Positions 3,836 through 27,659 of a DNA stretch of 40,808 nucleotides are shown here, piece by piece (the first letter of the stretch is position 1; each line of letters starts with the position of its first letter). Source of the stretch: Clostridia bacterium (GTDB lineage: Bacteria > Bacillota > Clostridia > Oscillospirales > CAG-272); the NCBI GenBank assembly GCA_017463865.1, contig JAFTOI010000023.1:1-40808 (forward strand), written 5' to 3'. The translations under genes were made by a program, and so were the position numbers. A model generated the notes under the pieces. The model was not told where the DNA came from, made no database searches, and was given only the letters and a program-made list of their open reading frames with translations.

Positions 3836-4666
3836 TCACATCACCCAATTCACCACCGCACACACCGCCGCGCCGATCGCGGTGGGCAGCGCTGCCGCCA
3901 GCGCTGTCCACTTCCACGACCCGGTCTCCTTGCGCACCGTCCAGAGGGTCGTCGAGCAGGGCCAGTGAAACAGCGAGAAGAGCATGAAGCAGAGCGCCGT
4001 GCCTGCGTCCCAGCCATGCGCAACGAGCAGCGGGCGCAGAGCGGACAACTCGCCGAGCTCGGCCAGGCTGCCGCCTGCCGTGTAGGCCATCAGCGCGATG
4101 GGCAGGACGATCTCATTGGCTGGGAAGCCGAGGATGAAGGCCACGAGGATCACGCCGTCGAGGCCAATCAGCCGCCCGAGCGGGTCGAGCAGTGCCGCCG
4201 CATGCGTCAGCAGGGGAGCATCCGCGACGGAGATGTTCGCCATCAGCCAGATGACCAGCCCGGCCGGCGCGGCGACAGCCGCCGCCCGCCCCAGCACGAA
4301 CAGCGTCCGGTCGAGCACCGACCGCACGATCACCCGCCCCAGCTGGGGCCGGCGGTAGGGGGGCAGCTCGAGGGTGAAGGCCGACGGCACGCCGCGCAGG
4401 ACGGTCGCGGACAGCAGCCGCGTCGCGGCGAAGGTGGCGAGGATGCCGAGCAGGATCAGCCCGGTCAGCATCAGCGCCGACCAAAACGACGCCGCCAGGC
4501 CCGCGCCGGCTACGAAGAACATCGAGATCAGCGCGATGAGCGTCGGAAAGCGGCCGTTGCAGGGAACGAGGCTGTTGGTGAGGATGCCCAGCAGGCGTTC
4601 GCGCGGTGAGTCGATAATGCGGCAGCCGACCACGCCGGCCGCGTTGCAGCCGAAGCCCATGCACAT
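3836..4666 (-). pseudogene. feoB: FeoB, C-terminal half (ferrous iron transporter split by the island)
   Basis: 276 residues that align in order with the second half of FeoB: the start MCMGFGCNAAGVVGCR matches the conserved MGFGCN motif of the first Gate domain, followed by a nucleophilic-gate helix bundle and a second Gate domain with GFPANEIVLP, then the last helices. The GTPase domain and first membrane helices are missing here but present at 26625-27659 on the same strand. The apparent ATG lies inside the 13-bp core repeat at the island edge, and no ribosome binding site precedes it, so this half is probably not translated while the island is in place. Rejoining at the core restores one frame of about 608 residues. 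Confidence 0.93.
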
Positions 4667-4686
4667 GCGTGGGGAAATCTGGGGTG
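4656..4686. other. Left attachment site (attL/attR core plus element arm)
   Basis: Core CCCATGCACATGC (4656-4668), two bases GT, then the element arm GGGGAAATCTGGGGTG (4671-4686). The left neighbour of the core is feoB coding sequence. By symmetry of the reconstructed attP the crossover dinucleotide would be CA at 4664-4665. Confidence 0.85.
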
Positions 4687-4734
4687 TATATTTTTGACCG
4701 GCGGAAAGAAACCGAACAAATATTGCAGAATGGG

Positions 4735-4763
4735 TTGAAAAAAGGACGAAAATATACTATAAT
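4735..4763 (+). promoter_or_regulatory. Promoter of the flavoprotein/ABC operon
   Basis: TTGAAA (4735-4740), 17-base spacer, TATAAT (4758-4763), 51 bases before the start at 4815. It lies in an AT-rich stretch only about 50 bases inside the element's left end, so the operon carries its own promoter. Confidence 0.75.
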
Positions 4764-4814
4764 ATATAAAAGTTGCTCTTTATTAATAAATCAGTCATAT
4801 TTGGAAGGTTATTT

Positions 4815-6761
4815 ATGAAAACGATTAAATGGCCGTACGCCAATGAATTCGGCATGGAAGAGGTCGTTGACGCGGACGTGCTCGTCCTCGGCGGCGGGCT
4901 TGCCGGATGCTATGCGGCGATCGCGGCGGCAAGACGAGGCAAAAACGTCGTGCTGGTCGAAAAAGGCGCCACCGAGCGCAGCGGCTCGGCCGGCAGTGGT
5001 TTCGATCACTGGGAAAGTGCCTGCACGAACCCCTGCTCCCGCGTCACGGCGAAGGAGATCGCCGAGGCTTATGTCAACGAGCAGGACGGCTACAGCAACG
5101 GCATTGCACACTATATTGAGTGTCAGGAGGGCTATGACCGCCTGCTTGACATGGAGTTGTTCGGCGGCAAGATCCGCGATACCGAGGGTGAGTTCAAGGG
5201 CGCGGAGTTCCGCGACGATAAGACCGGCCTGATGTTCGCGTATGACTATCACAACCGCTTCACTCTGCGTGTGTGGGGCTCGACCTTCAAGCCTGCGCTG
5301 TACAAGGAATTGAAGCGGCTGGGCGTGAAGGTCTATGACCGCACCGAGGCGACGGCGCTGATGGTCGAGAACAAGAACGGCAAAAAGCGCGGCACGGGTG
5401 CCCTCGGCATGAACGTCCGCACCGGCAAGTTCATGATCTTCCGCGCCAAGGAGACGGTGCTGACCATGTCCCGGCCGGCGCGCATCTGGCTCTTCAATCC
5501 CGACCTGACAGGCCTGTGCGAATTCCGCCCGATGCAGAGCATCGGCAGCGGCCACGCGATGGGCTACCGCGCGGGCATCGAGTTCACCATGATGGAGAAA
5601 TCGGTCAAGGGTGAGTTTTCCTCGGCCGGACGCAGCTTTCCGCCCTACGGCACCGGCAACAACCACAACACCTGGTACGCCGCTACCATGGTCGACGCGC
5701 GGGGCGTCGAGATCCCATATGTCGACCGCGACGGCCGTGAGCTGAAGACGGTGTCCGAGCGCTACTATCCCGCGCCGGGACAGAAATTCTTCCTCAAGGG
5801 CGGCGTCATCGACGATCCGAAGTACGAATACCGCGGCCCCGAGACCCTGCCCTTTGACGAGCTGATGAAGCGGGGCTATCAGCTTCCTTTCTACGCTGAT
5901 CTGAGCCGCATGCCCGAGATGGAGCGCAAGGTCATCTGGGGGATGATGGTTGGCGAGGAGGGAAAGACCAAGATCCCGATCCTCAAGAATTACACCGAGC
6001 GCGGCTTTGACCCGGCGATCCACATGCTGCAGAGCTACGGCAACGGTTGGCAGTCGGCCAACTTCCTGCCCCAGGAGCGTCAGCTCTTCGGCGCGCCGGG
6101 CGGCATCATGATCGACTGGGATCTCAAGACCAACATCGACGGCATCTATGCCGCCGGTGACCAGCTCTTCGCCTCCGACTGCTGCGGCTTTGCCTGCGCC
6201 ACCGGCTACTACGCCGGGCGCAAGGCGGCGGCCGCATCCGAGACGGTGGAGCTTGCCGAGATCGACCGCGCCTTCTGCGATGCCGAAAAGGAACGCCTCT
6301 ACCGGCCGATGACCGTCGACGCCGAGAACGGCATGAGCTGGAAGGAGCTGAACATGGCCATCTCCAAGGCCATGCAGAACTACTGCGGCGGCGTGAAGTG
6401 CAAGGATCTCCTGCTGGAGGGCCTCGATCTGCTGCGCAGCTACGAGACCGATATCGTGCCTCAGATCAGCGCTGAGAACCCGCATGAGCTGATGCGGACG
6501 CACGAGGTGTTCGACATTCTCGAGGTGGCCAAGCTGATCCTCGAATCCTGCCTGCTCCGCGAATCGAGCTCGGCCCCCCTCTGCTTCGAGCGCAGCGATT
6601 TCCCCGAAGTCGACCCGCCCGAGAACGATCACTTCATCACCATCCGTCTCGACGATGACGGCAAGGTGGTCAAGGGCGCCGTCCCGAAGGGCTACTTCGG
6701 CGACCTCAAAACCGAATACGAGAAGCGAAATCAGGACTACATCCGGGGGGATCTGAAATGA
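4815..6761 (+). CDS. FAD-dependent reductase flavoprotein, AprA/fumarate-reductase-like
   Basis: 648 residues. The N-terminus has the FAD Rossmann motif VLGGGLAG (25-31) with the ribose-binding Glu in VVLVEKG (49), then ERSGSAGSGFDHW, typical of the succinate dehydrogenase/fumarate reductase/adenylylsulfate reductase flavoprotein superfamily. The later part has GGIMIDWDLKTNIDGIYAAGDQ, the second FAD-binding stretch. The start at 4815 is chosen for GGAAGG a few bases upstream. The next gene, a ferredoxin, overlaps by ATGA, which resembles an AprA/AprB pair. No other sulfate-reduction gene is in the window, so a true APS reductase is unlikely; a dedicated organic electron acceptor or substrate brought in by the adjacent importer is more plausible. 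No signal peptide, so cytoplasmic. Confidence 0.82.
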   Translation: MKTIKWPYANEFGMEEVVDADVLVLGGGLAGCYAAIAAARRGKNVVLVEKGATERSGSAGSGFDHWESACTNPCSRVTAKEIAEAYVNEQDGYSNGIAHYIECQEGYDRLLDMELFGGKIRDTEGEFKGAEFRDDKTGLMFAYDYHNRFTLRVWGSTFKPALYKELKRLGVKVYDRTEATALMVENKNGKKRGTGALGMNVRTGKFMIFRAKETVLTMSRPARIWLFNPDLTGLCEFRPMQSIGSGHAMGYRAGIEFTMMEKSVKGEFSSAGRSFPPYGTGNNHNTWYAATMVDARGVEIPYVDRDGRELKTVSERYYPAPGQKFFLKGGVIDDPKYEYRGPETLPFDELMKRGYQLPFYADLSRMPEMERKVIWGMMVGEEGKTKIPILKNYTERGFDPAIHMLQSYGNGWQSANFLPQERQLFGAPGGIMIDWDLKTNIDGIYAAGDQLFASDCCGFACATGYYAGRKAAAASETVELAEIDRAFCDAEKERLYRPMTVDAENGMSWKELNMAISKAMQNYCGGVKCKDLLLEGLDLLRSYETDIVPQISAENPHELMRTHEVFDILEVAKLILESCLLRESSSAPLCFERSDFPEVDPPENDHFITIRLDDDGKVVKGAVPKGYFGDLKTEYEKRNQDYIRGDLK

Positions 6762-7039
6762 AAAAAGAAATGTTTGCAACCGTAGTGCCCTGCAGCGCAA
6801 GACCGCTGATCTATGACGAAGCGCTCTGTGTCGGCTGCAACCGCTGCGCGCAGGTCTGTCAGGTCGATATCCTCCTGCCCAATCCCGAAAAAGGCAAGCC
6901 CCCGATCATCGCTTATCCCGGCGAGTGCTACTACTGCGGCTGCTGCGTGATGGCCTGCAATATCGAGGGCGCCATCCGCCTGCAGCACCCGCTGATGAAC
7001 CGCGCGAAATTCGTGCCGGTCAAGCAGGAGAGCAAGTGA
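6758..7039 (+). CDS. Small ferredoxin with two [4Fe-4S] clusters
   Basis: 93 residues with two complete CxxCxxCxxxC motifs: Cys24/27/30/34 and Cys57/60/63/67. This is the bacterial-type two-cluster ferredoxin fold and probably passes electrons to the flavoprotein encoded just upstream, with which it overlaps by four bases (ATGA). It is shorter than AprB of sulfate reducers. The following permease gene starts in a TGATG overlap, showing tight translational coupling of redox and transport genes. Confidence 0.92.
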   Translation: MKKEMFATVVPCSARPLIYDEALCVGCNRCAQVCQVDILLPNPEKGKPPIIAYPGECYYCGCCVMACNIEGAIRLQHPLMNRAKFVPVKQESK

Positions 7040-7956
7040 TGGCAAAGTATATCGGAAAACGCCTGCTGATGGGCATCATAAGCATCTTCGCGCTGATCAC
7101 GGTTACCTTTTTCCTCGTTCACCTGATGCCCGGCAATCCGTTCAATCTGGAAAACGTCAATCAGGCGGTACAGGATCGGCTGATGAGCTACTACGGCCTC
7201 GACCGGCCGCCCCACGAGCAGTTCGGAATGTACCTCGAGAAGCTGCTGCAGGGTGACCTCGGCATCTCCTACAAAAAGGTGGGCATGACGGTCAACGAGC
7301 TGATCGCGCTCAAGGCGCCGGCCACCATCCAGCTCGGCGTGATCGCTTATGTGCTGGCGCTCGTGCTGGGCACGGCGCTGGGCATCGTCATGGCTGTATC
7401 CAAGCGGGAAGTGCTGCGGGGCGGGATCATGTTTGTCACCGTCCTCGGCATCAGTATTCCCAACTACGTGCTGGCGCTGATTTTGATGCTGGTGCTGGGC
7501 GTCCAGCTGGACTGGTTCCCTGTGCTTGGTCTTGACACCCCTATGCACTATGTCCTGCCGGTCATCACGCTGACGGTGTATCCGCTCGCGCAGATCGCAA
7601 AGCTGGTGCGCAGCAGCTATATGGAGGCCATGAACCAGGACTATGTCATTATGGCGAAGGCAAAGGGACTGAAGCCCGCGCGTGTGGCCTTTGTGCATGT
7701 GCTCAAGAACGCCATGATCCCCGTCATCACCATCTCGGGGCCGATGATCGCCTTTCTGCTGACCGGCAGCTTCGTGGTGGAGAACCTCTTCACCATTCCC
7801 GGCATCGGGCTTGAGTTCGTGCAGGCGGTCAGCAACCGCGACTATACGGTTATTCTGGGGCTGACCATTTTCCTCGGCATGATCTTAGTGCTCTGCAACC
7901 TGATCTCGGACATCATCTGCGCCCTGGTCGATCCCCGCATTAAACTGGAAGATTGA
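7039..7956 (+). CDS. Oligopeptide/nickel-type ABC transporter permease 1 (DppB/OppB family)
   Basis: 305 residues with six membrane helices. The N-terminus MAKYIGKRLLMGIISIFALI followed by TFFLVHLMPGNPF is diagnostic of the DppB/OppB permease family, and the EAA-type loop is near YVIMAKAKGLKPARVAF. The ATG at 7039 overlaps the ferredoxin stop (TGATG). It forms the membrane channel with the next gene. Substrate cannot be told from sequence; members move peptides, nickel chelates or glycosides. Confidence 0.94.
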   Translation: MAKYIGKRLLMGIISIFALITVTFFLVHLMPGNPFNLENVNQAVQDRLMSYYGLDRPPHEQFGMYLEKLLQGDLGISYKKVGMTVNELIALKAPATIQLGVIAYVLALVLGTALGIVMAVSKREVLRGGIMFVTVLGISIPNYVLALILMLVLGVQLDWFPVLGLDTPMHYVLPVITLTVYPLAQIAKLVRSSYMEAMNQDYVIMAKAKGLKPARVAFVHVLKNAMIPVITISGPMIAFLLTGSFVVENLFTIPGIGLEFVQAVSNRDYTVILGLTIFLGMILVLCNLISDIICALVDPRIKLED

Positions 7957-7964
7957 GGACAGTC

Positions 7965-8879
7965 ATGTTAGAACCAAACGAATATTTCGAGCCGCTGGGT
8001 GCGTCCGAAAAACGGGACGACTACATCCCCATCGCCAGCAAATCCTTCGCGCGGGATGTATGGGAGCGGTTCTGCACCAATAAACGGGCGCTGGCAGGGC
8101 TGATCCTGCTCGCCGTCATCGTTGCCGTCGCGATGATCGGCCCGCTCGTCTCACCCTACCCCTATGACGGCATGGACGTTTCGATCGCCAATCAGGGGCC
8201 GTCGTCCGCGCATTGGCTGGGTACCGACCAGATGGGACGCGATGAGCTGACCCGCGTGCTCTACGGCGCACGCATCAGCCTGACCATCGGCTTTGTGTCG
8301 ACGGCCATCAATCTGCTCATCGGCGTGCTCTACGGCGGCATTTCGGGCTACATCGGCGGCAAGCTGGACATGGTCATGATGCGCATTGTCGACGTCATCT
8401 TCTCCATCCCCGCCATGATCTACATCATTCTCATCATGCTGATCTTCGGCTCGAATGTCTACAGCGTCATGATCGGCATCTGCATCAACGGCTGGGTCAA
8501 CACGGCGCGGCTGGTGCGCGGCCAGATCGTCGCGCTCAAGGAGCGCGAGTTCGCCGTCGCCGCCTTCACCCTCGGCGCATCGCGGATGAAGATCCTCTTC
8601 AAGCACCTGATGATCAACACCCTCGGCCCCATCATCGTCAATGCGACGCTGATGGTGCCGCAGGCCATCTTCAACGAGGCATTCCTCAGCTTCATCGGCA
8701 TCGGCATCTCGGCTCCGCAGGCCAGCCTCGGCACCCTTGCGCAGGACGCCAAGATGCTGCTCTCCCGCTATCCGATGCAGATGGTCTATCCGGTCACCGT
8801 GATCTGTCTGGTGATCTTTGCCCTCAATTTCATTGGTGAAGGCCTCGAAGAGGCACTGAACCCGAAAGGAGCGCGCTGA
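7965..8879 (+). CDS. Oligopeptide/nickel-type ABC transporter permease 2 (DppC/OppC family)
   Basis: 304 residues, with an N-terminal OppC-type segment and six membrane helices. Typical motifs are HWLGTDQMGRDELTRVLYGA and the coupling loop EFAVAAFTLGASRMKILFKH. Start at 7965 is preferred over an in-frame TTG upstream because GAGG precedes it by seven bases. The stop overlaps the next ATG (TGATG). Confidence 0.94.
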   Translation: MLEPNEYFEPLGASEKRDDYIPIASKSFARDVWERFCTNKRALAGLILLAVIVAVAMIGPLVSPYPYDGMDVSIANQGPSSAHWLGTDQMGRDELTRVLYGARISLTIGFVSTAINLLIGVLYGGISGYIGGKLDMVMMRIVDVIFSIPAMIYIILIMLIFGSNVYSVMIGICINGWVNTARLVRGQIVALKEREFAVAAFTLGASRMKILFKHLMINTLGPIIVNATLMVPQAIFNEAFLSFIGIGISAPQASLGTLAQDAKMLLSRYPMQMVYPVTVICLVIFALNFIGEGLEEALNPKGAR

Positions 8880-9936
8880 TGGATTCCTTACACAAAGAAC
8901 TGCTGACCGTCGAAGGCCTCGAGGTTGAATTCAAGACCAAGCAGGGGCCGGTCCACGCCCTGCGCGGCGTGACCTTTGACATCAAGACGCGCGAGATCCT
9001 CGGCATCGTCGGTGAATCGGGCTCGGGTAAGTCGGTCACGATGATGTCGGTCATGAATCTGCTGGCCGAAAACGGCACCATGACCGGCGGCTCCATCCGC
9101 TTCGAGGGCAGGGAACTCTCCACCGTGGGCCTCGGCACCAAGGCCGAGAAAAGAGCGCACGAAAAGGAAATGATGAACATCCGCGGCAAGGAGATCGCGA
9201 TGGTCTTCCAGGACCCGATGACCTACCTCAACCCGGTGCTGACCATCGGCACACAGCTGACCGAGGGGTTTCGCCGGCATTTCGGCTATTCCCGCGCCGA
9301 GGCGAAAGCCAAGGCCATCGAGCTGCTGGGGCAGGTTGGCATCTCCAATCCCGAGAAGCGGCTGAAGCAGTACCCCTACGAATTCTCGGGCGGCATGCGG
9401 CAGCGCATTATCATCGCGACAGCCCTCGCCTGCGAACCCAAGCTGCTCATCGCCGACGAGCCGACCACCGCGCTCGACGTCACCATTCAGGCGCAGATCC
9501 TGAGCCTGTTCGAGCGTTTGGTCAAGGAGCGTGGCGTCAGCGCCATCATCATCACCCATGACCTCGGCGTCGTCGCCGAGATCTGCGACAAGATCGTCAT
9601 CATGTACGGCGGCCAGATCGTCGAGCGGGGCACCGTCAAGGAGATCTTCAACGAGGCCAAGCACCCCTACACCCGGGGGCTTCTGGACAGCATTGGCAAG
9701 GTTGAAGCTGAGCGCACGCCGCTGCGCTACATCCCCGGCACGCCGCCCAATCTGCTGGTGCGCCACGCCGGCTGCACCTTCTGCCCGCGCTGTGACAAGG
9801 CAATGAAGATCTGCCGTGAATACAAGCCGGCCGAGACCGTCTTCTCCGACGGGCACAGCTGCAGCTGCTGGCTGTACTGCCGTGACCGCGCGGAAGAGCT
9901 CGTCCGGGCACAGGACGAAGAAAGGCAGGAAACGAT

Positions 9937-9940
<4 letters not shown>
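8879..9940 (+). CDS. ABC transporter ATPase 1 (DppD/OppD family)
   Basis: 353 residues: Walker A GESGSGKS (45-52), Q-loop [12 protein letters not shown], signature FSGGMRQR, Walker B LLIADEPT and switch IITHDLGVV, then the oligopeptide-family C-terminal extension with a cysteine group ([17 protein letters not shown] and CSCW) resembling the Fe-S-binding tail seen in some Dpp/Opp ATPases. It powers uptake through the two permeases. Overlaps the next gene by four bases. Confidence 0.94.
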
Positions 9941-10905
<965 letters not shown>

Positions 10906-10944: not shown

Positions 10945-12543
10945 ATGAAAAAGATCCTCTGCCTCATCATGGCGCTGACCATGCTGCTCTCGATGGCAGG
11001 CTGCGGCTCGTCGCAGACTGACAAGGGCAACAGCATCGTGATCGCCACCGTTTCCTCCACCGGCGGCCTCGACCCGGCCGGCTTCGCGCTCGACCTGTGG
11101 ACTGAGTATTCCAAGCTCTGCATCGATGGCCTCATCAGCTTCGACGACCAGGGCAACATGACCTACGAATCCGCCGAGAGCTACACCGTCAGCGATGACG
11201 GCCTCGTCTGGACCTTCAACCTCCGCAAGAACGCCAAGTGGAGCGATGGCTCTTCTGTCACCGCCGCCGACTTCATCAACACCATGATGCGCGCGCTCGA
11301 TCCCAACAACGGCAACGCCATCTACTCCAACATGCTCTACATCATCGACGGCGCTGAGGCCTACAACAAGGGCACCGGCAAGGCTGAGGATGTCAAGCTG
11401 GCCGCCAAGGACGACTTCACCCTTGAGCTTACCCTCAAGGCGCCCTGCACCTACCTGCTGAAGATGCTGTCCATGCCTGTCTTCTACCCCTCCAAGGCCG
11501 GCTACGCCACCAACGAAAACGCTTCGTGGTACAAGGATCCCGCCACTTCGCTTGGCAATGGTGCATTCTGCCTCGAGTCCTACACCGAGGGCGTCGGCTA
11601 CACCATCGTCAAGAACCCCTACTACTATCAGGCAGACAAGGTCAAGCTCGACCGCATCGAGACCCGCTTCGTCACCGACTCGACTGCTCTGCTCTCCTCC
11701 TATAAGACCGGCGAGGTCGATGTCGTTACCGGCCTGCCCTCCTACGTCACCGAGGAGTACACCGAAGAAGACGGTCTCTACACCTGGAAGATGCTGACCT
11801 CCAAGTTCATCCTGCCCAACCTCTCGGTCAAGCCGCTTGATGACGTCCGCGTCCGCGAGGCCATTGCCATCGCCCTGACCCGCGCCGACATCTGCGCCGC
11901 CATCGGCTCCGACTATATCCCCTCGGTCAACTACGTCGCCGAGTACATGATCTCCCCCTCGAGCAGCCAGCTCTTCAAGGATGAGGTCGAGCCGCTGTTC
12001 GTCGAGGATGCCGCCCGCGCCAAGCAGCTGCTGGCCGACGCCGGCTACCCGAACGGCCAGGGATTCCCGACGCTGACCTACAAGTACCCCAACAGCGAAA
12101 AGGATTCTCTCCTTGCGCAGGGTATTCAGGCCCAGCTGAAGTCGGTGCTCGGCATCAACATCGAGCTGGTCGGTATGGAGGACGAGGTCTACGCCCAGGA
12201 CAAGAAGGACGGCAACTATGAGCTGATCCGCCACAGCTGGACGGCCGACTACAACGACCCGATCAACTTCCTCAACCTCTACATCAGCGGTGCATCGTCC
12301 AACTACAACGGTGTCAAGGATGCAGCATTTGATCAGGCCATCGCCAACTCCGACGCGGCAACCGATCCCGCTGAGCGCACCAAGTACCTGCACGAGGCAC
12401 AGAAGATCCTCGTCAGCGAGAACTTCTACGTCATTCCCGCCGTTACCCAGGTCTACATCGGCCTCGGCAACCCCGACATCAAGGGCATTTCCTACTGCTC
12501 GACCGGCGAGCGCATGTACCGCTTCGCTTACATCGAGGGCTGA
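10945..12543 (+). CDS. Solute-binding lipoprotein, family 5 (DppA/OppA type)
   Basis: 532 residues. Signal peptide MKKILCLIMALTMLLSMAGC with the lipobox Cys at residue 20 (SMAGC), then the family 5 extracellular binding domain: a typical N-lobe motif TFNLRKNAKWSDGSSVTAAD and the C-lobe LTYKYPNSEKDSLLAQGIQ with RHSWTADYNDPINFLNLY. It captures the substrate outside the cell for the importer. A strong AAAGGAGT site precedes the start. It is the last gene before a terminator. The residues that set specificity cannot be read without a structure. Confidence 0.94.
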   Translation: MKKILCLIMALTMLLSMAGCGSSQTDKGNSIVIATVSSTGGLDPAGFALDLWTEYSKLCIDGLISFDDQGNMTYESAESYTVSDDGLVWTFNLRKNAKWSDGSSVTAADFINTMMRALDPNNGNAIYSNMLYIIDGAEAYNKGTGKAEDVKLAAKDDFTLELTLKAPCTYLLKMLSMPVFYPSKAGYATNENASWYKDPATSLGNGAFCLESYTEGVGYTIVKNPYYYQADKVKLDRIETRFVTDSTALLSSYKTGEVDVVTGLPSYVTEEYTEEDGLYTWKMLTSKFILPNLSVKPLDDVRVREAIAIALTRADICAAIGSDYIPSVNYVAEYMISPSSSQLFKDEVEPLFVEDAARAKQLLADAGYPNGQGFPTLTYKYPNSEKDSLLAQGIQAQLKSVLGINIELVGMEDEVYAQDKKDGNYELIRHSWTADYNDPINFLNLYISGASSNYNGVKDAAFDQAIANSDAATDPAERTKYLHEAQKILVSENFYVIPAVTQVYIGLGNPDIKGISYCSTGERMYRFAYIEG

Positions 12544-12630: not shown

Positions 12631-12659
12631 TTGACAAAGCCACGGAAATGTGCTATCAT
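12631..12659 (+). promoter_or_regulatory. Promoter P2 (PHP/FAD oxidoreductase operon)
   Basis: TTGACA (12631-12636), 17-base spacer, TATCAT (12654-12659) with an extended -10 TG. It is strikingly similar to the promoter at 19871-19898: both read TTGACAAA, then CCACGG, then TGTGCTAT. Confidence 0.85.
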
Positions 12660-12695
12660 ACCTGCAGAGCCACAACAAACCCGGAGGTATTTTCG

Positions 12696-18029: not shown

Positions 18030-18355
18030 TCATGTGCCTCCTTTCGCCCGGAAGCAGGATTGACGGGCTGAATCACAGACCGGGACGCACCGAATGTCGG
18101 CAGGCCGGCCGACTGTTCCGCTATGTACGCCTGGATCAGCTCAGCGAGGGTGTTCTTCTCGCCGAAAGTATGTTGTACGGTGATCGTTGCGTTATGGTGC
18201 TTACCGCCCGCACGCGCGGCAGATCGGGTCTTGTCCATCGCATTTCCCCCGCTGCCATTATACGATGAAGGCGGCGGGGATATGCCGATGTAGGGAAGGA
18301 GCGGCTCATGCTGGGGGAAGGTCGGTGTGAAAAATGGGTGGATGGTTTTAGGCAT
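18026..18355 (-). CDS. Small protein co-encoded with the recombinase
   Basis: 109 residues, starting at 18355 with a strong AAGGAG seven bases upstream. Its stop overlaps the GTG of the recombinase, so the two are translationally coupled. The first 40 residues are Pro-rich and probably disordered; the middle reads NATITVQHTFGEKNTLAELIQAYIAEQ, a short helical segment that could bind DNA or the recombinase. It resembles small proteins found next to clostridial transposon recombinases, but I cannot place it in a named family. Possible directionality factor, as inference only. Confidence 0.75.
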   Translation of the reverse strand: MPKTIHPFFTPTFPQHEPLLPYIGISPPPSSYNGSGGNAMDKTRSAARAGGKHHNATITVQHTFGEKNTLAELIQAYIAEQSAGLPTFGASRSVIQPVNPASGRKEAHE

Positions 18356-19713: not shown

Positions 19714-19737
19714 GGTGAACCTCCATTAAAATTAAAT

Positions 19738-19748: not shown

Positions 19749-19870
19749 CGCGGCTGCGATGTTAATGTCATTATATCAGAAAAGTTGTCGTTTTTCGATA
19801 AGAATTTCGGTGCTTTGTCTGATTTTTTTACCTGGGCTATGAGAGATATATACTAAATTTTATTTGTATC

Positions 19871-19898
19871 TTGACAAATCCACGGGGTGTGCTATAAT
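19871..19898 (+). promoter_or_regulatory. Promoter of the sialidase-like gene
   Basis: TTGACA (19871-19876), 16-base spacer, TATAAT (19893-19898) with an extended -10 TG. Very similar to the promoter at 12631-12659. Confidence 0.85.
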
Positions 19899-19914
19899 TT
19901 TGTATGACAAAATT
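19896..19914. promoter_or_regulatory. Perfect operator AATTTTGT-ATG-ACAAAATT overlapping the -10 box
   Basis: Eight-base arms with a three-base centre, overlapping the end of the -10 box and the start point, a classic repressor position. Core identical to the site at 19738. The pattern fits a GntR-family repressor; none is encoded in the window. Confidence 0.65.
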
Positions 19915-19935
19915 ACGTTTGGAGGATCAAATCCG

Positions 19936-21306
19936 ATGAAACCATCCATCAGTTGGAGCTACACCCACTACCGCCCCCTGCATCAGACAGAGCGTATCGA
20001 GGCGCCCTATATCTGCCGTATCGCCCCCTCGGCGACCGGATTTTCGTTTGATTATATAGATGGAAAAGAAAAAAATGCCGCACACCGCCTGATTTGGCGG
20101 CTGCGTGACAGTGAGGAAACACATGTTTTGCCGCTGGATAGCTTCTCCGGTGCTGTCGACGGCCTTGCGCCTGACACCGACTACGCCTTCCGCGTCGAGC
20201 GCGGCGATGGTGTTTCCTCGACCGAACGTTTCGTTCGCACCGGCGAGGTGCCCGGAATTGTTGTGAACTATCTGCACCCCGATGATCCGGAGTATGCCTT
20301 CTCGGGCCGCTACCTCTGCTCGCCGTCGATCATCCGCCTGCCCGACGGTAGTCTGCTGGCGTCGATGGATGTCTACGCCGCCGGCGCGCCGCAGAATTTG
20401 ACGTTGATCTATGTCTCACGCGACGATGGACGCACCTGGTCGCATTTGACCGAGCTTTTCCCCTGCTTCTGGGGGAAGATGTTCCTCTGCGGCGGCGCGC
20501 TGTACATGATTGGCTGCTCGACCGAGTACGGCGATCTGCTCATCGGCCGCTCGGATGACGGCGGTGCGAACTGGACGGTTCCGACCGTGCTCCTGCGCGG
20601 TGCCTGCCACTGCAAGGAGGTTGGCTGGCACCGCGCGCCCATGCCGGTGCTGATCAAGGATGGCCGCGTCATGACCGACGTGCAGTATGGCGCGTGGTCG
20701 GAGAAGGTCTTTTGCGACGCGGTGGTGTCGGCTCCGGTCGACAGCGATCTGCTTGATGCGTCAAACTGGGTCTGCACCGAGTTGTGGGATGCGCGTAAGC
20801 ACATCGCCCCGCTGCCCGAGCGCATCTGGGGCGGGATCGAGGGGAATGTGATCGCGGCTCCCCACGGCGGTGTGGTCGACTTCCTGCGCTTCGCCGACCG
20901 CACGGCGCTGATCCTGCGCTATGACCCGCACGACCCCGAGGCTTCGCTGACGTTTGACGAGGTCATCGACTTCCCGGCGACGGCGTCGAAGTGGGATGTG
21001 GTGTACGACGAGGTGAGCGGCAAATATGTCGCCATCGTCAGCTGGGCGCTGGACGAGCCGGTGACGAAGCGCAATCTGCTGTCGCTGATCTGCTCGGACG
21101 ACCTGCGGCGGTGGAAGCTCTGCCGGCATCTGATCGACCACCGCGATGTCGACCCGAAGCTGGTGGGGTTCCAGTACGTCGACTTCTTCATCGAAGGGGA
21201 GGATATCCTGTATCTTTCCCGCACGGCGGTTAACGGGGCGCACAGCTTTCATGATTCCAACTACACGACTTTCCATAAGATCGAGAACTTCCGAGCTCTG
21301 CTGTAA
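19936..21306 (+). CDS. BNR/sialidase-fold protein with N-terminal FN3-like domain
   Basis: 456 residues. The start at 19936 has GGAGG ten bases upstream. Residues about 25-105 look like a fibronectin III-type domain (AHRLIWRLRDSEETHVL, GLAPDTDYAFRVERGDG). The rest is a six-bladed propeller candidate with two Asp-boxes, SRDDGRTWS (about 160) and SDDGGANW (about 207), and propeller phrases SPSIIRLPDGSLLASMD. This suits an exo-glycosidase of the sialidase fold or a glycan phosphorylase-like protein. There is no signal peptide, so it would act on imported substrate. No catalytic Arg triad could be confirmed by eye. Confidence 0.75.
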   Translation: MKPSISWSYTHYRPLHQTERIEAPYICRIAPSATGFSFDYIDGKEKNAAHRLIWRLRDSEETHVLPLDSFSGAVDGLAPDTDYAFRVERGDGVSSTERFVRTGEVPGIVVNYLHPDDPEYAFSGRYLCSPSIIRLPDGSLLASMDVYAAGAPQNLTLIYVSRDDGRTWSHLTELFPCFWGKMFLCGGALYMIGCSTEYGDLLIGRSDDGGANWTVPTVLLRGACHCKEVGWHRAPMPVLIKDGRVMTDVQYGAWSEKVFCDAVVSAPVDSDLLDASNWVCTELWDARKHIAPLPERIWGGIEGNVIAAPHGGVVDFLRFADRTALILRYDPHDPEASLTFDEVIDFPATASKWDVVYDEVSGKYVAIVSWALDEPVTKRNLLSLICSDDLRRWKLCRHLIDHRDVDPKLVGFQYVDFFIEGEDILYLSRTAVNGAHSFHDSNYTTFHKIENFRALL

Positions 21307-21569: not shown

Positions 21570-21583
21570 CTTGCATGTATCCG

Positions 21584-21691: not shown

Positions 21692-21828
21692 AGCGTAGTT
21701 CCTCCGTGGACAGATGGCAGAGATGTGCAGCGATCGGTGCCGTTCATTTTGTGGAGAACACACCGGCGCATGATGTGTCCCTTTCGCGCTTTGACCGCTG
21801 CCCCGTATTCCGAGCCATCAACAGTATT

Positions 21829-22818
21829 TCATATTTGCGTCTCCCTGTCAGCCACTTTTTGAATCAAAAGAGCCGTTTCGGTGGAGCGCAGCAGGTTTTC
21901 GGTCACGGTGTGGCCGCCGTGTATTTCCCGGACAAATTCTGACAGATAATCCTTCTTGGATGCTTCGCCCTCTATTCTGATGGGGGTGGAAGCTCCCTCT
22001 TCATAGATCGTGACTGCAGGATCGGTATAATGAAAGGTCAAGAGCCCCCGCTCACACCAGATGCGGAACTCCCAATAGGTGGGCATGGAAAAGACCTGGG
22101 ACGGGGCGGAATAGGAAACGTCCGCCAACACACCCGCGTCGTTTTCCAGTCGTGCCATAAACATAGCCGAATCCTTAAAATCCCGATGACGGTCAGCATA
22201 GGCATTCCACACCCGTGCCGCGTCGGTCTTGACAAATTCCATTCCCGTCAGGATCCGCACCAGATCAATGCCGTGTATGGCAAGATCATTGATCGTGCCG
22301 CCGTGCATGCCCTTTTCAAAATACCAATCGGGGCGGTGAGCATAGTCGATGCAATGCTGACCGTTAAAGGCGATGCTGCGTACCTCACCCAGCCGTCTGC
22401 TATCCAGCACGCGCTTTGCGGTCAGGCTCTGAGGCAGATACCGCAGATCCAGCATACACGCAACCGTTAAGCTGTTTTGGGTACATAAGGCGCGGATTTT
22501 CTCCAACTGTGTAAGGCTTGTGCAGATGGGCTTGTCGGCGATCACGTGTTTCCCCGCCTCCAAGGCCTTGACGATCACCTCGCCCCGATCGCCGTAAGCG
22601 CTGCCTACTGCCACCGCGTCAATATCCGATGCAAGCCACTCCTCGTAGCTGTTTGGGGAAAATTTGACACCGAGCGCAGCTTCTGCCGCATTTCGCGCCT
22701 GCACATTTTCTTCGATACACCCCGCCGCCTCGGCAATTTCGGATGCCGCCACTTTTTTGTAAAGCGCGTAGATGTGCCCATGGCGAAAGCCGTTAAACAG
22801 AATTCTGCATTTTTTCAT
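21829..22818 (-). CDS. Gfo/Idh/MocA-family oxidoreductase 3
   Basis: 329 residues, NAD(P)-dependent sugar or cyclitol dehydrogenase family. The N-terminal Rossmann part has an atypical first motif (ILFNGFRHGHIYAL instead of GxGxxG), the family phrase EAGKHVIADKPICTSLTQ (EKP-like), and a C-terminal domain with HGGTINDLAIHGIDLVRIL, holding the usual catalytic-site His and Asp. It overlaps the NagB-like gene by four bases (ATGA) and is last in a four-gene operon. Confidence 0.9.
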   Translation of the reverse strand: MKKCRILFNGFRHGHIYALYKKVAASEIAEAAGCIEENVQARNAAEAALGVKFSPNSYEEWLASDIDAVAVGSAYGDRGEVIVKALEAGKHVIADKPICTSLTQLEKIRALCTQNSLTVACMLDLRYLPQSLTAKRVLDSRRLGEVRSIAFNGQHCIDYAHRPDWYFEKGMHGGTINDLAIHGIDLVRILTGMEFVKTDAARVWNAYADRHRDFKDSAMFMARLENDAGVLADVSYSAPSQVFSMPTYWEFRIWCERGLLTFHYTDPAVTIYEEGASTPIRIEGEASKKDYLSEFVREIHGGHTVTENLLRSTETALLIQKVADRETQI

Positions 22819-23579
22819 TCCAATACCCTCGCCGCGCTGTCTCTATCTAAAAACATCTTTGCGCATCCGTGCCGCCGGAGCGCTGTGGCGGGACAGCACT
22901 CGCCATATGCGCCCTTTAACATAGCCTCTACCGCCTTTGCCTTTGTGGCGGCGGGAACGGTGCAAATGATGGCCTCCGCCGACAGCAGTGCAGGTACGGT
23001 CAGCGTCAGGGCGTAACGCGGCACGCTTGCAAGATCGGGAAAGCATCCGTCGTGTACCTGCTGCATACGGCAAACCTCGTCCAGCGCCACACGTTTGATC
23101 AGTGCCTTGTCATGAAAATCCGCAACCGGCGGATCGTTAAAGGCAATGTGACCGTTCTCGCCGATGCCCATGCAGACCACATCGGGGGGATCGTGCTTCA
23201 GCAATGCCGTATAAGCGGCAATTGCCTCCTCTGCATCGGCTTTGGCGGGGATCAGATGAACCGAGGCAAAGGGTGCCTTGGAGAAGAGATGCTCGGTCAG
23301 ATATCTTGCAAAGGACTGTGCATCCTCCAGCCCAAGCCCCACATACTCGTCCATATGATAGGCGTGGATGCGGGAAAAATCAAGCTCCTCCGCGAGCAGT
23401 GCCTCCAGCATTTCGTTCTGTGACGGTGCCGCCGCGAAGACTACATTAGCACTGCCTTTCCGTTCGATCACCCGACGGATGGCACACGCCGCCTCTGCCG
23501 CCGCCGCGCGCCCCATTTCGGCACGGGTATCGTAAACATAGGTATCGAGATTTTCCGTTTTTATTCTTTTGATCTGCAT
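22815..23579 (-). CDS. Glucosamine-6-phosphate deaminase/isomerase-like protein (NagB family)
   Basis: 254 residues. Family motifs: AAPSQNEMLEALL (phosphate loop region), HAYHMDEYVGL (catalytic Asp) and MGIGENGHIAFNDPP (base-binding loop with His). It probably isomerises or deaminates an amino-sugar phosphate. Sequence departs enough from NagB that a related substrate is possible. Lies between two oxidoreductase genes, 12 bases after one and overlapping the other. Confidence 0.9.
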   Translation of the reverse strand: MQIKRIKTENLDTYVYDTRAEMGRAAAAEAACAIRRVIERKGSANVVFAAAPSQNEMLEALLAEELDFSRIHAYHMDEYVGLGLEDAQSFARYLTEHLFSKAPFASVHLIPAKADAEEAIAAYTALLKHDPPDVVCMGIGENGHIAFNDPPVADFHDKALIKRVALDEVCRMQQVHDGCFPDLASVPRYALTLTVPALLSAEAIICTVPAATKAKAVEAMLKGAYGECCPATALRRHGCAKMFLDRDSAARVLE

Positions 23580-23591
23580 GAAGGCCTCCTG

Positions 23592-24458
23592 TCAGAGTTT
23601 GATCTCGGGCACCGGTTCCCACTTCCCGCTTTCCAGCGAGCGCAGGATCGTGTTCATGAGAAAAACTGGCGCGATAAAGCTTTCGTAGCTTTTTTTCATC
23701 TCCCCGCCCCGCAGCAGGTCAAGCATATCGTTCATTTCATGACGGAAGCTGTCGGGGGTGAAGGTCAGCAGCTCGGAGCGGGCACTTTTGGTGCCGTATA
23801 CCGAGACGCTGTAATATCCGCTTTTTTCCACATAGGTGCCGGTCACGTTGTAATGCGCGTACCGCGCGGTAAAGGTGAGTGTGTCCTGCTGCCTGTCCGC
23901 AAATATTTCGATCACCTGCTCGCCGAAGATCGTCATCATCACCTCGATGAGGTGCTGGGCATAGAAGCAGAAGCCGCCGTAGGGGCTATCCATTTGGATC
24001 GGGCAGGCAAGGCTGCCGCCACGCAGCTCACCCAAGGCGTTGGTTCTGACTGCCTCGGCAAGAGAAAGTGTTTCCTCCAGCGCCGCACAGGTACTGCCGC
24101 CGCAAAGGCGGATGCCCTTTTCCTTTGCTGTCCGCATAAACTCGATTGCCTCGTCCTCGCGGCAGGTGATGGGCTTGTCGATAAACATGGGGATCCTGTC
24201 GTTCAAATAAGGCTTGGCGTATCGGTAATGGTTGTCTCCGTGACGGGCGGTAATCATCACCCCATCAAGCAGACCCTGCAGCTCACCGTAATCGGCCATG
24301 ATCGGCACGCCGAAGCTGTCGTGAAGCTTTTGCACAGCCTCCGGCTCGTTGCTGTATATGCCTGCGACCTCAATATCGGGGTAGTTCCCCTCGGAGATGA
24401 GCTTTAGAAAATTCTTTGCATGGGAATTTTCACATCCCAGTATGGCGATTTTATACAT
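23592..24458 (-). CDS. Gfo/Idh/MocA-family oxidoreductase 2
   Basis: 288 residues. The N-terminal cofactor domain starts IAILGCENSHAKNFLKLI and has PMFIDKPITCREDEAIEF, the EKP-type region; the C-terminal beta domain is shorter than usual. Members oxidise or reduce sugars, cyclitols or sugar acids with NAD(P). Twelve bases from the next gene, part of the four-gene operon. Confidence 0.9.
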   Translation of the reverse strand: MYKIAILGCENSHAKNFLKLISEGNYPDIEVAGIYSNEPEAVQKLHDSFGVPIMADYGELQGLLDGVMITARHGDNHYRYAKPYLNDRIPMFIDKPITCREDEAIEFMRTAKEKGIRLCGGSTCAALEETLSLAEAVRTNALGELRGGSLACPIQMDSPYGGFCFYAQHLIEVMMTIFGEQVIEIFADRQQDTLTFTARYAHYNVTGTYVEKSGYYSVSVYGTKSARSELLTFTPDSFRHEMNDMLDLLRGGEMKKSYESFIAPVFLMNTILRSLESGKWEPVPEIKL

Positions 24459-24469
24459 GCCGATACCTC

Positions 24470-25546
24470 TCAGTCAAATTTCACGGGCAGGGGATTTTGT
24501 GCATGGCAGGCTTCGATCACGGCAATGACCTGCGCCGCGTGCTCGGGCGTGATCGCAAGCGCTTGACCAAACATCACGGTGTGATAAAGCATCTGATAAA
24601 AATCCTTAACCGCAACATTGAAGGAGCTGCCCTTGATATCCCCCTCCTCCTCGGTAAAGGTCAGTTTTTCCGAGCAGTATACGGGCTTGCCGTCTGGCCC
24701 GGAAAGGGGTTCTCTTATCACCGGTCTTTCAGGATATGCCGAAAAATCCGCTACATATTTGAGTTTATACGACGAATTGGTTGCGAGAAGTGTTCCCTTT
24801 GATCCGTAGATTTTGAACACATAATCACCGGCAAAGGCGTCGGCGGAAATGACCTCGATGTCGACCACGGGCTTACCGGGGGCCGAAAGAATGATCTTTC
24901 CGTAATCGTCTCCGTCACCGCTGGTCAGTACCGTCCCCAGTGAGGAAAAGGCCACCTTAGTGTTCTGATCCCAGCCAAGCAGATCCAGCGCCTGACCGAT
25001 GGGGTGGGGCCCGGTATTGTAAACACCGCCCGCGCAGCAGCATTGCAGGGTCTGCCAGTCCCAACGTCTGGCAAATCCCGAATATTTCAGATTGATCTGC
25101 AAAACGTCCCCAAGTTTTCCGCCGGCAATGATCTCCTTGACCTTCAAAAAGGCAGGATTGTATAAGGATTGATGAAACGCCGTTACCACGACGCCATGCT
25201 TTTTTGCGGTCAGGATCAGATCCATACATTCATAATAGGAACGGGCAAAGGGCTTTTCGGAAAGCACGTTGAGGCCGTGCGTGAGGAGTTCCTTGGTGAT
25301 GGGGTAGTGCATTTGGGAATAGGAGGCATTCACCACGATGTCAATATCTTTTCTGTTGAACAGCTCCCTGTAATCGGCAACCGTTTCACAGCCGTATTCG
25401 ACAGCGGCGCACGCTCGACGTGCCTCATCGGTCTCTGCTACGCAAACCACCTCGCAAAAATCGTTATCTTCACTTCTCAAAAACTTTCCGTGAATATTTC
25501 TGCCGCTTCGGCCCTGACCGATTACGGCAACTCTCATTTTTTTCAT
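24470..25546 (-). CDS. Gfo/Idh/MocA-family oxidoreductase 1
   Basis: 358 residues. MRVAVIGQGRSGRNIHG gives a GxGxxG cofactor loop; NVLSEKPFARSYYE is the classic EKP motif; the C-terminal domain has YNTGPHPIGQALDLLG with the catalytic-type His and Asp. The start at 25546 is chosen for GGAGG nine bases upstream. First gene of the operon, divergent from the AraC regulator. Confidence 0.92.
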   Translation of the reverse strand: MKKMRVAVIGQGRSGRNIHGKFLRSEDNDFCEVVCVAETDEARRACAAVEYGCETVADYRELFNRKDIDIVVNASYSQMHYPITKELLTHGLNVLSEKPFARSYYECMDLILTAKKHGVVVTAFHQSLYNPAFLKVKEIIAGGKLGDVLQINLKYSGFARRWDWQTLQCCCAGGVYNTGPHPIGQALDLLGWDQNTKVAFSSLGTVLTSGDGDDYGKIILSAPGKPVVDIEVISADAFAGDYVFKIYGSKGTLLATNSSYKLKYVADFSAYPERPVIREPLSGPDGKPVYCSEKLTFTEEEGDIKGSSFNVAVKDFYQMLYHTVMFGQALAITPEHAAQVIAVIEACHAQNPLPVKFD

Positions 25547-25579
25547 TCGGTTCGCCCTCCTTTGAGTTTGGTGTGTTTT

Positions 25580-25608
25580 CATTATATCACAATAAAATAT
25601 GCATTGGA
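25580..25608 (-). promoter_or_regulatory. Promoter of the oxidoreductase operon
   Basis: On the minus strand TATAAT (25580-25585) with a 17-base spacer to a poor -35 (TTCCAA). A strong -10 with a weak -35 is usual for promoters driven by an AraC activator, and the divergent gene encodes one. Confidence 0.6.
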
Positions 25609-25677
25609 ATTGCGGATTTTATCTTTACTATTGTATTTTTTACTTTTATATGATAAACTAAAGGCGAGGTGAGCGTT

Positions 25678-26466
25678 ATGTTTGCGCAGCAAATTGGTGA
25701 AAGCATTCTGGAGGTGTCGCATAAGCGGATAGAGCGTCCTGACCGGAGCGTTTATTTCAACCACATCCACAATCATTGTGAGCTGCTTCTATTCATTCGG
25801 GGCGAGGCCGATTACAACATCGACGGTCAGATCTTCACCCCGTCCCCCTTTGACCTTCTTTTTATCCCGGCGGCGACCTATCATTATCTGATGCCCACTG
25901 CATCGGTTCCTTATGAAAACTACGTCATCGGGATATCCCCCGCCATTTTGCATGAAAAGCATTACCAAAAACTGTTCTCCCCTCCGTTGATGATCAATAT
26001 TAAGGAGGACGCAGAGATGAAGGCCTATTTCACACGGCTGGATCTTTACTACGAGCATTTTTCGGGGGAGGATTTTGCGAGCTGTGCGGAATCGCTGATC
26101 CGTGAGCTTATCACCTATTGCAGCTACTGTAAGGACAACCTGCATTCGGTCCGCAGCGGCAGCATTGCCTATATTGACGAGATCATCGGATATATTACCG
26201 AAAACATTGAAAAGCCCCTGGATGCGGACAGCATCGCCCACCATTTTCTGCTTTCCAAATCCTACATACAGAATCTGTTTTCGCAGAATATGCACATTGG
26301 TCTGAAAAAATATATTATGCAAAGAAAGATCTACGCCGCCCACGCAGATCTTGAACAGGGGATAAGCCCCTGCCAAGTCTGCGAAAAATATGCCTTTGGC
26401 GACTATTCCGTCTTTTATCGCCTTTATAAAAAAACCTTTTCAAGTTCCCCCGGGAGTAAAAAATAA
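25678..26466 (+). CDS. AraC-family regulator with cupin sensor
   Basis: 262 residues. N-terminal cupin (HIHNHCELLLFIRGEADY, FDLLFIPAATYHYL), linker, and C-terminal double helix-turn-helix (ENIEKPLDADSIAHHFLLSK then CEKYAFGDYSVFYRLYKKTF). Start at 25678 is preferred over the GTG at 25669 because GAGG sits eight bases upstream. Its divergent position suggests that it activates the oxidoreductase operon and the sugar isomerase gene that followed it before truncation. Confidence 0.92.
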   Translation: MFAQQIGESILEVSHKRIERPDRSVYFNHIHNHCELLLFIRGEADYNIDGQIFTPSPFDLLFIPAATYHYLMPTASVPYENYVIGISPAILHEKHYQKLFSPPLMINIKEDAEMKAYFTRLDLYYEHFSGEDFASCAESLIRELITYCSYCKDNLHSVRSGSIAYIDEIIGYITENIEKPLDADSIAHHFLLSKSYIQNLFSQNMHIGLKKYIMQRKIYAAHADLEQGISPCQVCEKYAFGDYSVFYRLYKKTFSSSPGSKK

Positions 26467-26486
26467 AAAGCAAAAGGTGAAACGAT

Positions 26487-26579
26487 ATGAAATTAGGATC
26501 CACAACGGGCCTGTTTGCGGCTTACGGTGAGCAGCGCGATAAAAAGATGAAAGAAATGGGCTTTGATTATATAGGGTAA
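26487..26579 (+). pseudogene. Sugar phosphate isomerase/epimerase, truncated after 30 codons
   Basis: ATG at 26487 with a good AAAGGTG site; the peptide MKLGSTTGLFAAYGEQ then KKMKEMGFDYIG is the N-terminal strand-helix-strand of an AP-endonuclease-2-type TIM barrel sugar isomerase. It stops at 26577-26579, about 75 bases from the right end of the element. It fits the operon logic of the AraC and oxidoreductase genes. The break marks the join between cargo and element end. Confidence 0.65.
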
Positions 26580-26624
26580 CACTAAATCTCTGGCAGACTT
26601 GACGCAAAAACAGTTTCCAGCGTT

Positions 26625-27659
26625 TCATATTACCCGCCGCACCCCAAATTTCCCCATGCACATGCACAGCGCCTGCTTGCCGCAGGCGCGGCAGGCGCGG
26701 AAGGGGCGGTCGAGATTGTACGCCACACGCGGCAGGTAGCCGGCGTCCTCGAGGAGGGTGAAGAGGGGGAAGAAGATGGCCATCGGGGGCAGCATGACCG
26801 ACACGACCCAGGCCAGCGTCCGCCAGACGCCCTCGATCAGCGCGCCGTGCAGCCAGTCGGGGGCGTGCAGTGCGGCGAAGAGGTCGCTCAGTCGGGCCTC
26901 CACCCAGAACAGCGCGTCGCTCAGCCATGCGGAGGGGTAATTCGCCCCCTCGATGGTCAGCCAGAAGGTGAGGGCCAGCAGGGCGAGCATGACGGGGTAG
27001 GCCGTCACCCGGCCGGTCAGGAGACGGTCGAGGCGGGAGATCGTCCGCGCCGGTGCCCGGACGGCGGCGCGGGCGATGGATTCGGCGCGCGTCATCAGCG
27101 ACACGGCGTCGGATTCCGGCGCGCTGAGACGGCGAGGTGGGCAGTCTGCCGGGCGTGGGGCGGCGAATGCGGCCTCCAACGCGTCGGTCAGCCTGCGCAG
27201 ATCAGCCTTCCTGCGGGCGGTGATGCCCACCACGGGCAGGCCGAGCGCGTCGCGGAGCGCGGCAAAGTCAATGTCGATCCCCCGCCGCTTTGCCTCGTCC
27301 ATCAGGTTCACGCAGACCACGACCGGCCGCGTGGGATCGAGCTCGACCACCTGCAGGACGAGGGCGAGGTTGCGCTCAAGGCAGGTTGCGTCGCAGACGA
27401 CGATAACGCCGTCTGCCTCCCCGCCGCAGAGGAAGTCACGTGCGACTTCCTCCTCGGCCGAATGCGCCAGCAGCGAATAGGTACCGGGGATGTCGACCAG
27501 CGTCCAGCGCCCCGACGCCGTCTCAAACTCGCCCGACGCGACCTCCACCGTCTTGCCCGGCCAGTTGCCGGTGTGCTGGTGCAGGCCGGTGAGGCCGTTG
27601 AAGACCGTCGATTTGCCCACGTTCGGATTGCCGGCGAGGGCAATGACCCGCCCGCTCAT
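26625..27659 (-). pseudogene. feoB: FeoB, N-terminal half (GTPase domain and first gate), truncated by the island
   Basis: 344 residues; about 336 belong to FeoB and the last eight (KFGVRRVI) come from the element. G-protein motifs: GNPNVGKS (10-17), DIPG (56-59), NLMD (118-121), then helices and the first Gate region up to PFRACRACGKQALCMCMG. It starts with an ATGA overlap with feoA. FeoB imports Fe(II) through the inner membrane using its GTPase. The product made now would lack half of the channel and is probably inactive. Confidence 0.95.
26640..26665. other. Right attachment site (element arm plus core)
   Basis: Arm CACCCCAAATTTCCCC (26640-26655) overlaps the core CCCATGCACATGC (26653-26665), after which feoB coding sequence resumes. 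The arm is the inverted copy (15 of 16) of 4671-4686. Inferred crossover CA at 26661-26662. Confidence 0.85.

Follow-up and report, generated by a model that had tools for sequence, protein, structure and literature searches.

The window analysed here covers positions 1 to 40,808 of contig JAFTOI010000023.1 from a Clostridia bacterium (GenBank assembly GCA_017463865.1), a metagenome-assembled genome (MAG) that is 67% complete. In it, the Fe(II) transporter gene feoB is present as two halves separated by a 22-kb segment. We interpret this segment as a metabolic island inserted site-specifically by a large serine recombinase (LSR) dedicated to feoB, and put the probability of this reading at about 0.93. 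It is carried by features that were directly observed: the junctions, the in-frame join of the two halves, the intact orthologs, the symmetry of the attachment site attP, the recurrence of the insertion, the grouping of the LSRs and the conservation of both halves in a related genus. The split locus comprises the following features (aa, amino acids; ORF, open reading frame).

3836..4666, minus strand: C-terminal half of feoB, a 276-aa ORF starting with MCMGFGCN and open to its stop codon (Pfam PF07670 and PF07664, Gate and FeoB_C)
4656..4668, plus strand: core repeat CCCATGCACATGC at the left junction, with the putative crossover dinucleotide CA at 4664-4665
4665..26661, no strand assigned: integrated element of 21,997 bp, delimited by junction analysis
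4669..4686, plus strand: left attP arm GTGGGGAAATCTGGGGTG, palindromic partner of the right arm
16404..18029, minus strand: LSR of 541 aa (Resolvase, Recombinase, Zn_ribbon_recom and DUF4368 domains; PHROG 95, integrase), grouping with LSRs of the feoB site
26640..26655, plus strand: right attP arm CACCCCAAATTTCCCC, palindromic partner of the left arm
26653..26665, plus strand: core repeat CCCATGCACATGC at the right junction, with the putative crossover CA at 26661-26662
26625..27659, minus strand: N-terminal half of feoB, a 344-aa ORF with a short element-encoded tail at its end (Pfam FeoB_N, 5e-56)
27656..27931, minus strand: feoA (Pfam PF04023), directly upstream of the feoB N-terminal half

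The original prediction, made from the sequence alone, described a 22-kb integrative element splitting feoB, with a 13-bp repeat at both junctions and minus-strand halves joining in frame. All of this was borne out, and the element could be refined to 21,997 bp located at the MCMGFGCN codons. Exactly two copies of the 13-bp repeat are present in the window, both exact and at the expected positions; with up to one mismatch allowed, 0.13 matches are expected by chance, and two matches were obtained in 1 of 100 shuffles. Joining the flanks at one repeat yields a FeoB of 608 aa with an unbroken reading frame, residues 318-356 of which align without gaps with feoB of all four same-genus genomes found. 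The prediction had also proposed looking for an empty site in relatives. Such a site exists in four of the four same-genus genomes, each belonging to a different species, where feoB is intact and a single ATGTGCATGGGC is found per fetched stretch. The predicted attB of the joined feoB is CATGTGCATGGGC. A site-specific element and an exact attB located within the conserved MCMGFGCN codons are both supported, and exact restoration of feoB by excision is supported as a prediction from sequence.

The recombinase shows the complete domain set of an LSR, Pfam PF00239, PF07508, PF13408 and PF14287 all scoring above their cut-offs. LSRs exchange strands at a 2-bp core within a near-symmetric site. When the element ends are joined, the sequence ACACCCCAGATTTCCCCACGCA-TG-TGCATGGGGAAATTTGGGGTGC is obtained, whose two arms can pair at 18 of 20 positions on either side of a TG that is itself non-palindromic. 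This attP scores 19/22, against at most 14/22 for all 2594 TG-centred sites on the plus strand of the window. Since the palindrome is centred on TG, we place the crossover within the ATG that opens the MCMGFGCN codons; it is probably the 2-bp TG in the sense of feoB (CA on the plus strand), within the 13-bp repeat. The best palindrome centre is this same first TG in 11 of 12 elements of the LSR group, the exception being the element of genome G118. A short core, a near-palindromic attP and an attB in 4/4 same-genus feoB genes are thus all present, as at an LSR site, where attP spans about 40-50 bp. Taken together, these features predict an LSR active in integration and excision: it would recombine the palindromic attP with the feoB attB across that TG, integration would split feoB into two open half-genes, and excision would rejoin them exactly.

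Recurrence of the insertion was analysed in 395 genomes of the family and 394 genomes of the order. Among relatives with an LSR of at least 42% identity, feoB is cut at the MCMGFGCN codons in 13 of 14; no ortholog was found in the remaining one (G636). The three closest LSRs of the family sample (46-50%; G214, G200 and G118) all lie within a feoB broken at these codons. The order sample contains 11 genomes, besides this one, with an LSR at or above 42%, and feoB is cut in ten of them; in seven of these ten the LSR lies between both halves on one contig. As a control, we considered the 21 genomes of the order in which the best LSR reaches 36-40% identity: 15 have a listed feoB ortholog, and its frame is cut in none. 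Of 150 orthologs listed for the order sample (164 genomes matched), 20 show a short C-terminal frame (<360 aa) and 18, this genome included, are split, a count that excludes G471, at a contig edge, and G443, where there is one in-frame stop and the halves are not separated.

An LSR tree of 64 rows separates the 18 feoB-site LSRs plus that of G636 from 45 others by a branch with SH-aLRT support of 100. The feoB label changes twice on this tree, compared with a mean of 15.9 changes after shuffling, and none of 500 shuffles gave a value as low. The non-feoB label denotes rows with no feoB match within 1.5 kb of flank, and the tree omits the truncated LSR of G118 and a second LSR group that is too distant. 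The element's LSR belongs to a group that is bound to this one site in feoB and is spread over several families of the order. The group extends to a phage-like IMG/VR contig (L285; DNA polymerase, helicase, ligase) that carries a 37% identical LSR at this site.

Further searches covered attP and viral sequences. The attP arms matched, among the 395 family genomes, this window and three single sites (G077, G140, G152), with no feoB match within the 3-kb stretches of the latter. An LSR search of genome contigs gave three relatives at 29-31%, and the first LSR search of viral contigs gave none. A scan of viral contigs for the attP pattern (68 stretches) found no attP beside an LSR; its one useful match (L242/L285) is the C-terminal half junction of the phage-like contig. 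The feoB matches H21-H23 were dropped, since these phage-labelled records contain unbroken feoB frames of 645-729 aa.

Several split genomes (e.g., G433, G552, G447, G613, G590, G699) have no match to the window LSR at E 1e-95 or better. A second LSR group was found in G552, G447, G755, G699, G748 and G590; its members are 22-25% identical to the window LSR and 48-58% identical among themselves (G699/G748, 99%). In the four elements with both junctions readable, two of which are near copies, the attP centre lies 2 bp downstream, on the next TG (14-20/20). A second LSR lineage has converged on the same feoB codons. The element of G552 is a prophage of siphovirus type. Segments of two second-group elements, 19 kb from G552 and 20 kb from G699, gave no match when compared with phages by megablast.

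Other breaks were observed in feoB. In G200 (L104), G609 (L178) and L284 the gene has a further break around residues 367-372, at the VPCNGRFPT codons. Each break is flanked by a distant serine recombinase, and the element ends are similar (GGTGGCGC); feoB may therefore have another LSR landing site. In G428 (L166) and G040 (L105) feoB is broken around residues 285-291 and a further distant LSR-like gene lies close by; in G428 this break is additional to the one at the main site. The LSR of G118 is cut to 299 aa and abuts the feoB C-terminal half (L102, 14378-15290), with reduced attP symmetry, so that G118 is probably a frozen insertion. A TGA in its N-terminal half was considered as a sign of decay and rejected, being the codon formed at the junction. 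In L439 (G613:C17) feoB is divided between the two strands, with about 6.5 kb separating its halves, and no LSR was detected, which suggests an inversion after insertion.

The related genus g157 is mostly split. A standalone C-terminal half occurs in 18 of 23 genomes with an ortholog (25 searched), the N-terminal half was found in 17 of these 18, and three of them carry the second LSR group (G755, G699, G748). Selection was estimated from 12 of the 18 split and four of the five intact genomes, with a dS limit of 2.5 that removed no pair. The median dN/dS between split genomes is 0.189 for the N-terminal half (66 pairs) and 0.163 for the C-terminal half (55 pairs, 11 genomes, G739 being left out since its C-terminal half ends at a contig end), compared with 0.253 and 0.203 between intact genomes (6 pairs each). 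The split halves examined show dN/dS values no higher than those of intact copies; they are under purifying selection and give no sign of decay. The complete C-terminal halves from split genomes, this genome included, all run 276-281 codons to their stop (18/18); the same part measures 275-277 codons in the intact g157 genes checked (n=4).

LSR and N-terminal half distances are correlated across ten g157 genomes (Mantel r 0.85, 2/5000 permutations), as are LSR and C-terminal half distances in eight of these (r 0.82, 1/5000); the two halves correlate with each other about as closely (r 0.88). This co-divergence makes the association between LSR and feoB look old, and on these distances it probably is. 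In the five g157 genomes with a core element in common, LSR and feoB distances are weakly correlated (r 0.37, 705/5000), which leaves room for re-acquisition; repeated re-acquisition of the LSR from a shared pool is possible. In nine of the ten LSR-bearing pairs printed, the dS of the LSR (0.49-1.13) exceeds that of both halves (0.27-0.88), the exception being G575/G752.

Some observations weigh against a feoB-dedicated island. For this element, neither an excised circle nor a restored junction was observed. Its LSR gene is not terminal, with 11.7 kb of the element to its left and 8.6 kb to its right; the LSR is at the element end in G214, G200, G468, G576 and G600 and internal in G546, G575, G752, G753 and G749. 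The orientation of the element relative to its own LSR is opposite to that in G214, G200 and G468, for which we propose the near-symmetric attP as the explanation. Arms cross-paired from different elements of the group reach a mean of 12.9/20 (maximum 20), own pairs having a mean of 16.0; as cross-paired arms are fairly palindromic, arm symmetry is to be read as a feature of the group and not as proof of each pairing. On the LSR tree, supported branches force the two label changes because of G636, whose element was not seen in feoB. Lastly, the host genome is an incomplete MAG (67%), and no transfer genes were seen that would move the element from cell to cell.

While the element is integrated, this FeoB should be truncated after the GTPase domain and the first gate region, and its function would be lost. 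The original prediction went further and held that integration removes Fe(II) uptake and that the element acts as a reversible switch; both remain predictions. A FeoB-like frame of at least 600 aa, besides the split one, is present in 10 of the 10 split order-sample relatives with an LSR at or above 42%, and these extra genes weaken the claim of lost uptake. No second clear FeoB is among the matches listed for this 67%-complete MAG. As regards a switch, this genome showed no restored junction.

We lean slightly towards an ordinary parasitic or cargo element that disables one dispensable FeoB paralog among several, at low cost to the host, with halves that look conserved because elements are frequently gained and lost. 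The several FeoB-like genes per genome fit such an account, as does the use of the same hot spot by distant LSRs and a prophage, and serine-recombinase integrative and mobilisable elements (IMEs) that disrupt dispensable genes are known (PMC5704250, in the part considered here). It has to face the co-divergence of LSR and halves in ten genomes, which favours long residence over only recent gains, and the fact that all 18 complete C-terminal halves are open.

A reversible switch, in which LSR-mediated excision in some cells or conditions would restore feoB, so that the element would govern Fe(II) uptake by this FeoB, is plausible, though less likely than not. The gene is split in frame and would be exactly restorable, as in switch elements of the 'active lysogeny' type, and both halves are under purifying selection in a mostly split genus, which makes the idea worth testing. 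The tracking of LSR and N-terminal half distances across ten g157 genomes also speaks for it, and so does G636, in which a close LSR lies beside an unrecombined palindromic attP-like site (16/22). The contig of G636 has no exact terminal overlap; its site hints either at the arrangement expected in a circle or at a copy that never inserted in feoB. Against a switch stand the status of regulated excision as a prediction, the other FeoB-like frames in the ten split relatives, the weak correlation among the five genomes sharing a core element, and a search of 25 g157 assemblies in which the exact attP-type pattern matched C-terminal half junctions only (13 matches). A wider version is somewhat less likely still: feoB of g157 would be a genus-wide, long-kept DNA switch, with islands at the gate codons in most species that are excised to restore Fe(II) uptake at need, trading iron import against island metabolism, and with two distant LSR groups converged on it at crossovers 2 bp apart.

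Separate translation of the halves followed by assembly into a two-part FeoB is improbable: both halves are conserved and the break puts an ATG at the first codon of the C-terminal half, but none of GGAG, GAGG or AGGA occurs just upstream of that ATG in any of 19 C-terminal junctions, and the break lies within a highly conserved membrane motif. An assembly artefact joining unrelated contigs at the repeat could be imagined from the shortness of the repeat and the incompleteness of the MAG, but is very unlikely because the identical break recurs in other genomes, including the single-contig G552 and G699 and the two-contig G694.

The feoB-dedicated island carries, besides its LSR, the following features.

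4815..6761, plus strand: FAD-binding flavoprotein, fumarate reductase/adenylylsulfate reductase-like (Pfam PF00890; NCBIfam matches below cut-off)
6758..7039, plus strand: 4Fe-4S ferredoxin-like protein (Pfam Fer4)
6925..7956, plus strand: oligopeptide-type ABC permease (Pfam PF00528), true start probably downstream of 7039
7953..8879, plus strand: OppC-type ABC permease (Pfam PF00528, PF12911)
8879..9940, plus strand: oligopeptide ABC ATPase (Pfam PF00005, PF08352)
9937..10905, plus strand: second oligopeptide ABC ATPase (Pfam PF00005, PF08352)
10945..12543, plus strand: family 5 solute-binding protein (Pfam PF00496)
12654..13919, plus strand: CehA/McbA or PHP-like metallohydrolase (NCBIfam NF038032, 68 bits, below the cut-off of 80)
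13987..15333, plus strand: FAD-dependent oxidoreductase (Pfam PF12831, 6e-108)
15362..16237, plus strand: 291-aa protein with no Pfam, NCBIfam or PHROGs match
18026..18355, minus strand: small ORF of 109 aa overlapping the LSR start, with no Pfam, NCBIfam or PHROGs match
19864..21306, plus strand: BNR/sialidase-like protein (weak match, below cut-off)
21829..22818, minus strand: Gfo/Idh/MocA oxidoreductase (domain match)
22815..23579, minus strand: glucosamine-6-phosphate isomerase-like (NagB-like) protein (domain match)
23592..24458, minus strand: Gfo/Idh/MocA oxidoreductase (domain match)
24470..25582, minus strand: Gfo/Idh/MocA oxidoreductase (domain match)
25669..26466, plus strand: AraC-family regulator (domain match)

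A weak similarity (31% over 51 aa, E 9e-5) connects the 109-aa ORF with an ORF in the corresponding position in G576. It may be a directionality factor or a protein like TnpW. An AT-rich ORF at 19049-19636 resembles by eye a remnant of an AraC-type sensing domain and has no Pfam match, and a short open frame at 26487-26579 (MKLGSTTGLFAAYGEQRDKKMKEMGFDYIG), near the right end, resembles the start of a truncated gene.

Neither relaxase nor conjugation families were found among the cargo proteins of the window scanned with Pfam (ORFs under about 90 aa outside the scan), so the scanned cargo does not place the element among integrative and conjugative elements or IMEs, which are defined by such genes. 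Phage structural or lysis families are likewise absent, in PHROGs for ten window proteins and in Pfam for the remaining cargo; the LSR matches an integrase PHROG, and the element does not class as a prophage. When the element was compared with plasmids by megablast, none of 320 records covered 80% of it, and the five rows listed cover 2-3% each, in ABC-transporter genes where annotated.

The other elements of the group carry cargo of a similar kind, metabolic or surface-protein genes, in the lists scanned. Galactose genes occur in G546, and G749 combines a sugar transporter with enzymes of the Gfo/Idh/MocA and NagB-like types, among the matches listed. The element of G468 has surface-polysaccharide genes, and that of G118 encodes a melibiase, an isocitrate/isopropylmalate dehydrogenase and a protein of aconitase type. 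A set of five g157 elements contains SLH proteins, permeases and polysaccharide deacetylases, whereas G576 has little besides a second small resolvase. No transfer genes are among the families seen, a result that is provisional for the relatives. Their ORFs were taken by a greedy longest-ORF rule, which may pick antisense frames in GC-rich DNA, and six of nine ORF lists were scanned, with flanks, LSR and some short ORFs omitted (27/29, 22/25, 27/42, 27/37 and 33/48 proteins). For two relatives' lists the family tables cover the first 25/28 and 25/35, and 18/27 proteins of the latter were then scanned singly.

Gene-splitting excisable elements are already known, the skin element in sigK and the nif elements among them. 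In the part of PMC8987985 considered here, the Listeria comK prophage and analogous elements are described as cases where a recombinase splits a coding gene that excision restores. The likeness to the feoB island lies in the site-specific recombinase and the restorable coding gene; here, by contrast, the target is an iron transporter, the cargo is metabolic with no phage structural genes seen, and excision is predicted and its regulation hypothetical.

TnpX and TndX, the recombinases of Tn4451 and Tn5397, combine Resolvase, Recombinase, zinc ribbon and DUF4368 domains, and the window LSR resembles them in this make-up and in the 2-bp crossover. Tn4451 and its relatives are of low specificity, whereas the LSR group described here uses one feoB site and no mobilisation genes were seen. 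Staphylococcal cassette chromosome (SCC) elements, which insert at rlmH, also bring LSR-borne cargo without transfer genes; CcrB is the best NCBIfam match of the window LSR, but at 131 bits it is far under the cut-off of 900, and insertion is in feoB; the element does not class as an SCC cassette. Tn4451 is among the serine-recombinase elements treated in the part of PMC5704250 considered, which also covers IMEs that disrupt dispensable genes such as rumA; these share site-specific insertion in a host coding gene and differ in that no relaxase was found here.

The recurrence at feoB has a counterpart in the finding of Durrant et al. 2022 that diverse LSR clusters converge on one conserved gene site, e.g., prolyl isomerase or magnesium chelatase/ATP-dependent protease (PMC10083194, in the part considered). 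DUF4368 commonly marks multi-targeting LSRs in that part of the study, while here a DUF4368 group is tied to a single site. Words starting with "feo", "ferrous" or "iron" are absent from the main text of PMC10083194, and in open-access literature searched without supplements we found no paper naming feoB as an LSR site. Gene-splitting excisable elements, gene-disrupting serine-recombinase IMEs and LSR clusters converging on one gene site are thus known. New are the feoB target, the one-site DUF4368 LSR group, cargo without recognised transfer genes, the convergent second group and a mostly split gene under purifying selection. LSR elements and a prophage have repeatedly entered one conserved codon motif in a core iron transporter, and the LSRs compiled here come with predicted attP and attB sites; together with their single-site attB they may serve as integration tools. 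That most genomes of a genus have this gene interrupted while it is still under purifying selection offers a testable choice between control by DNA excision and element turnover.

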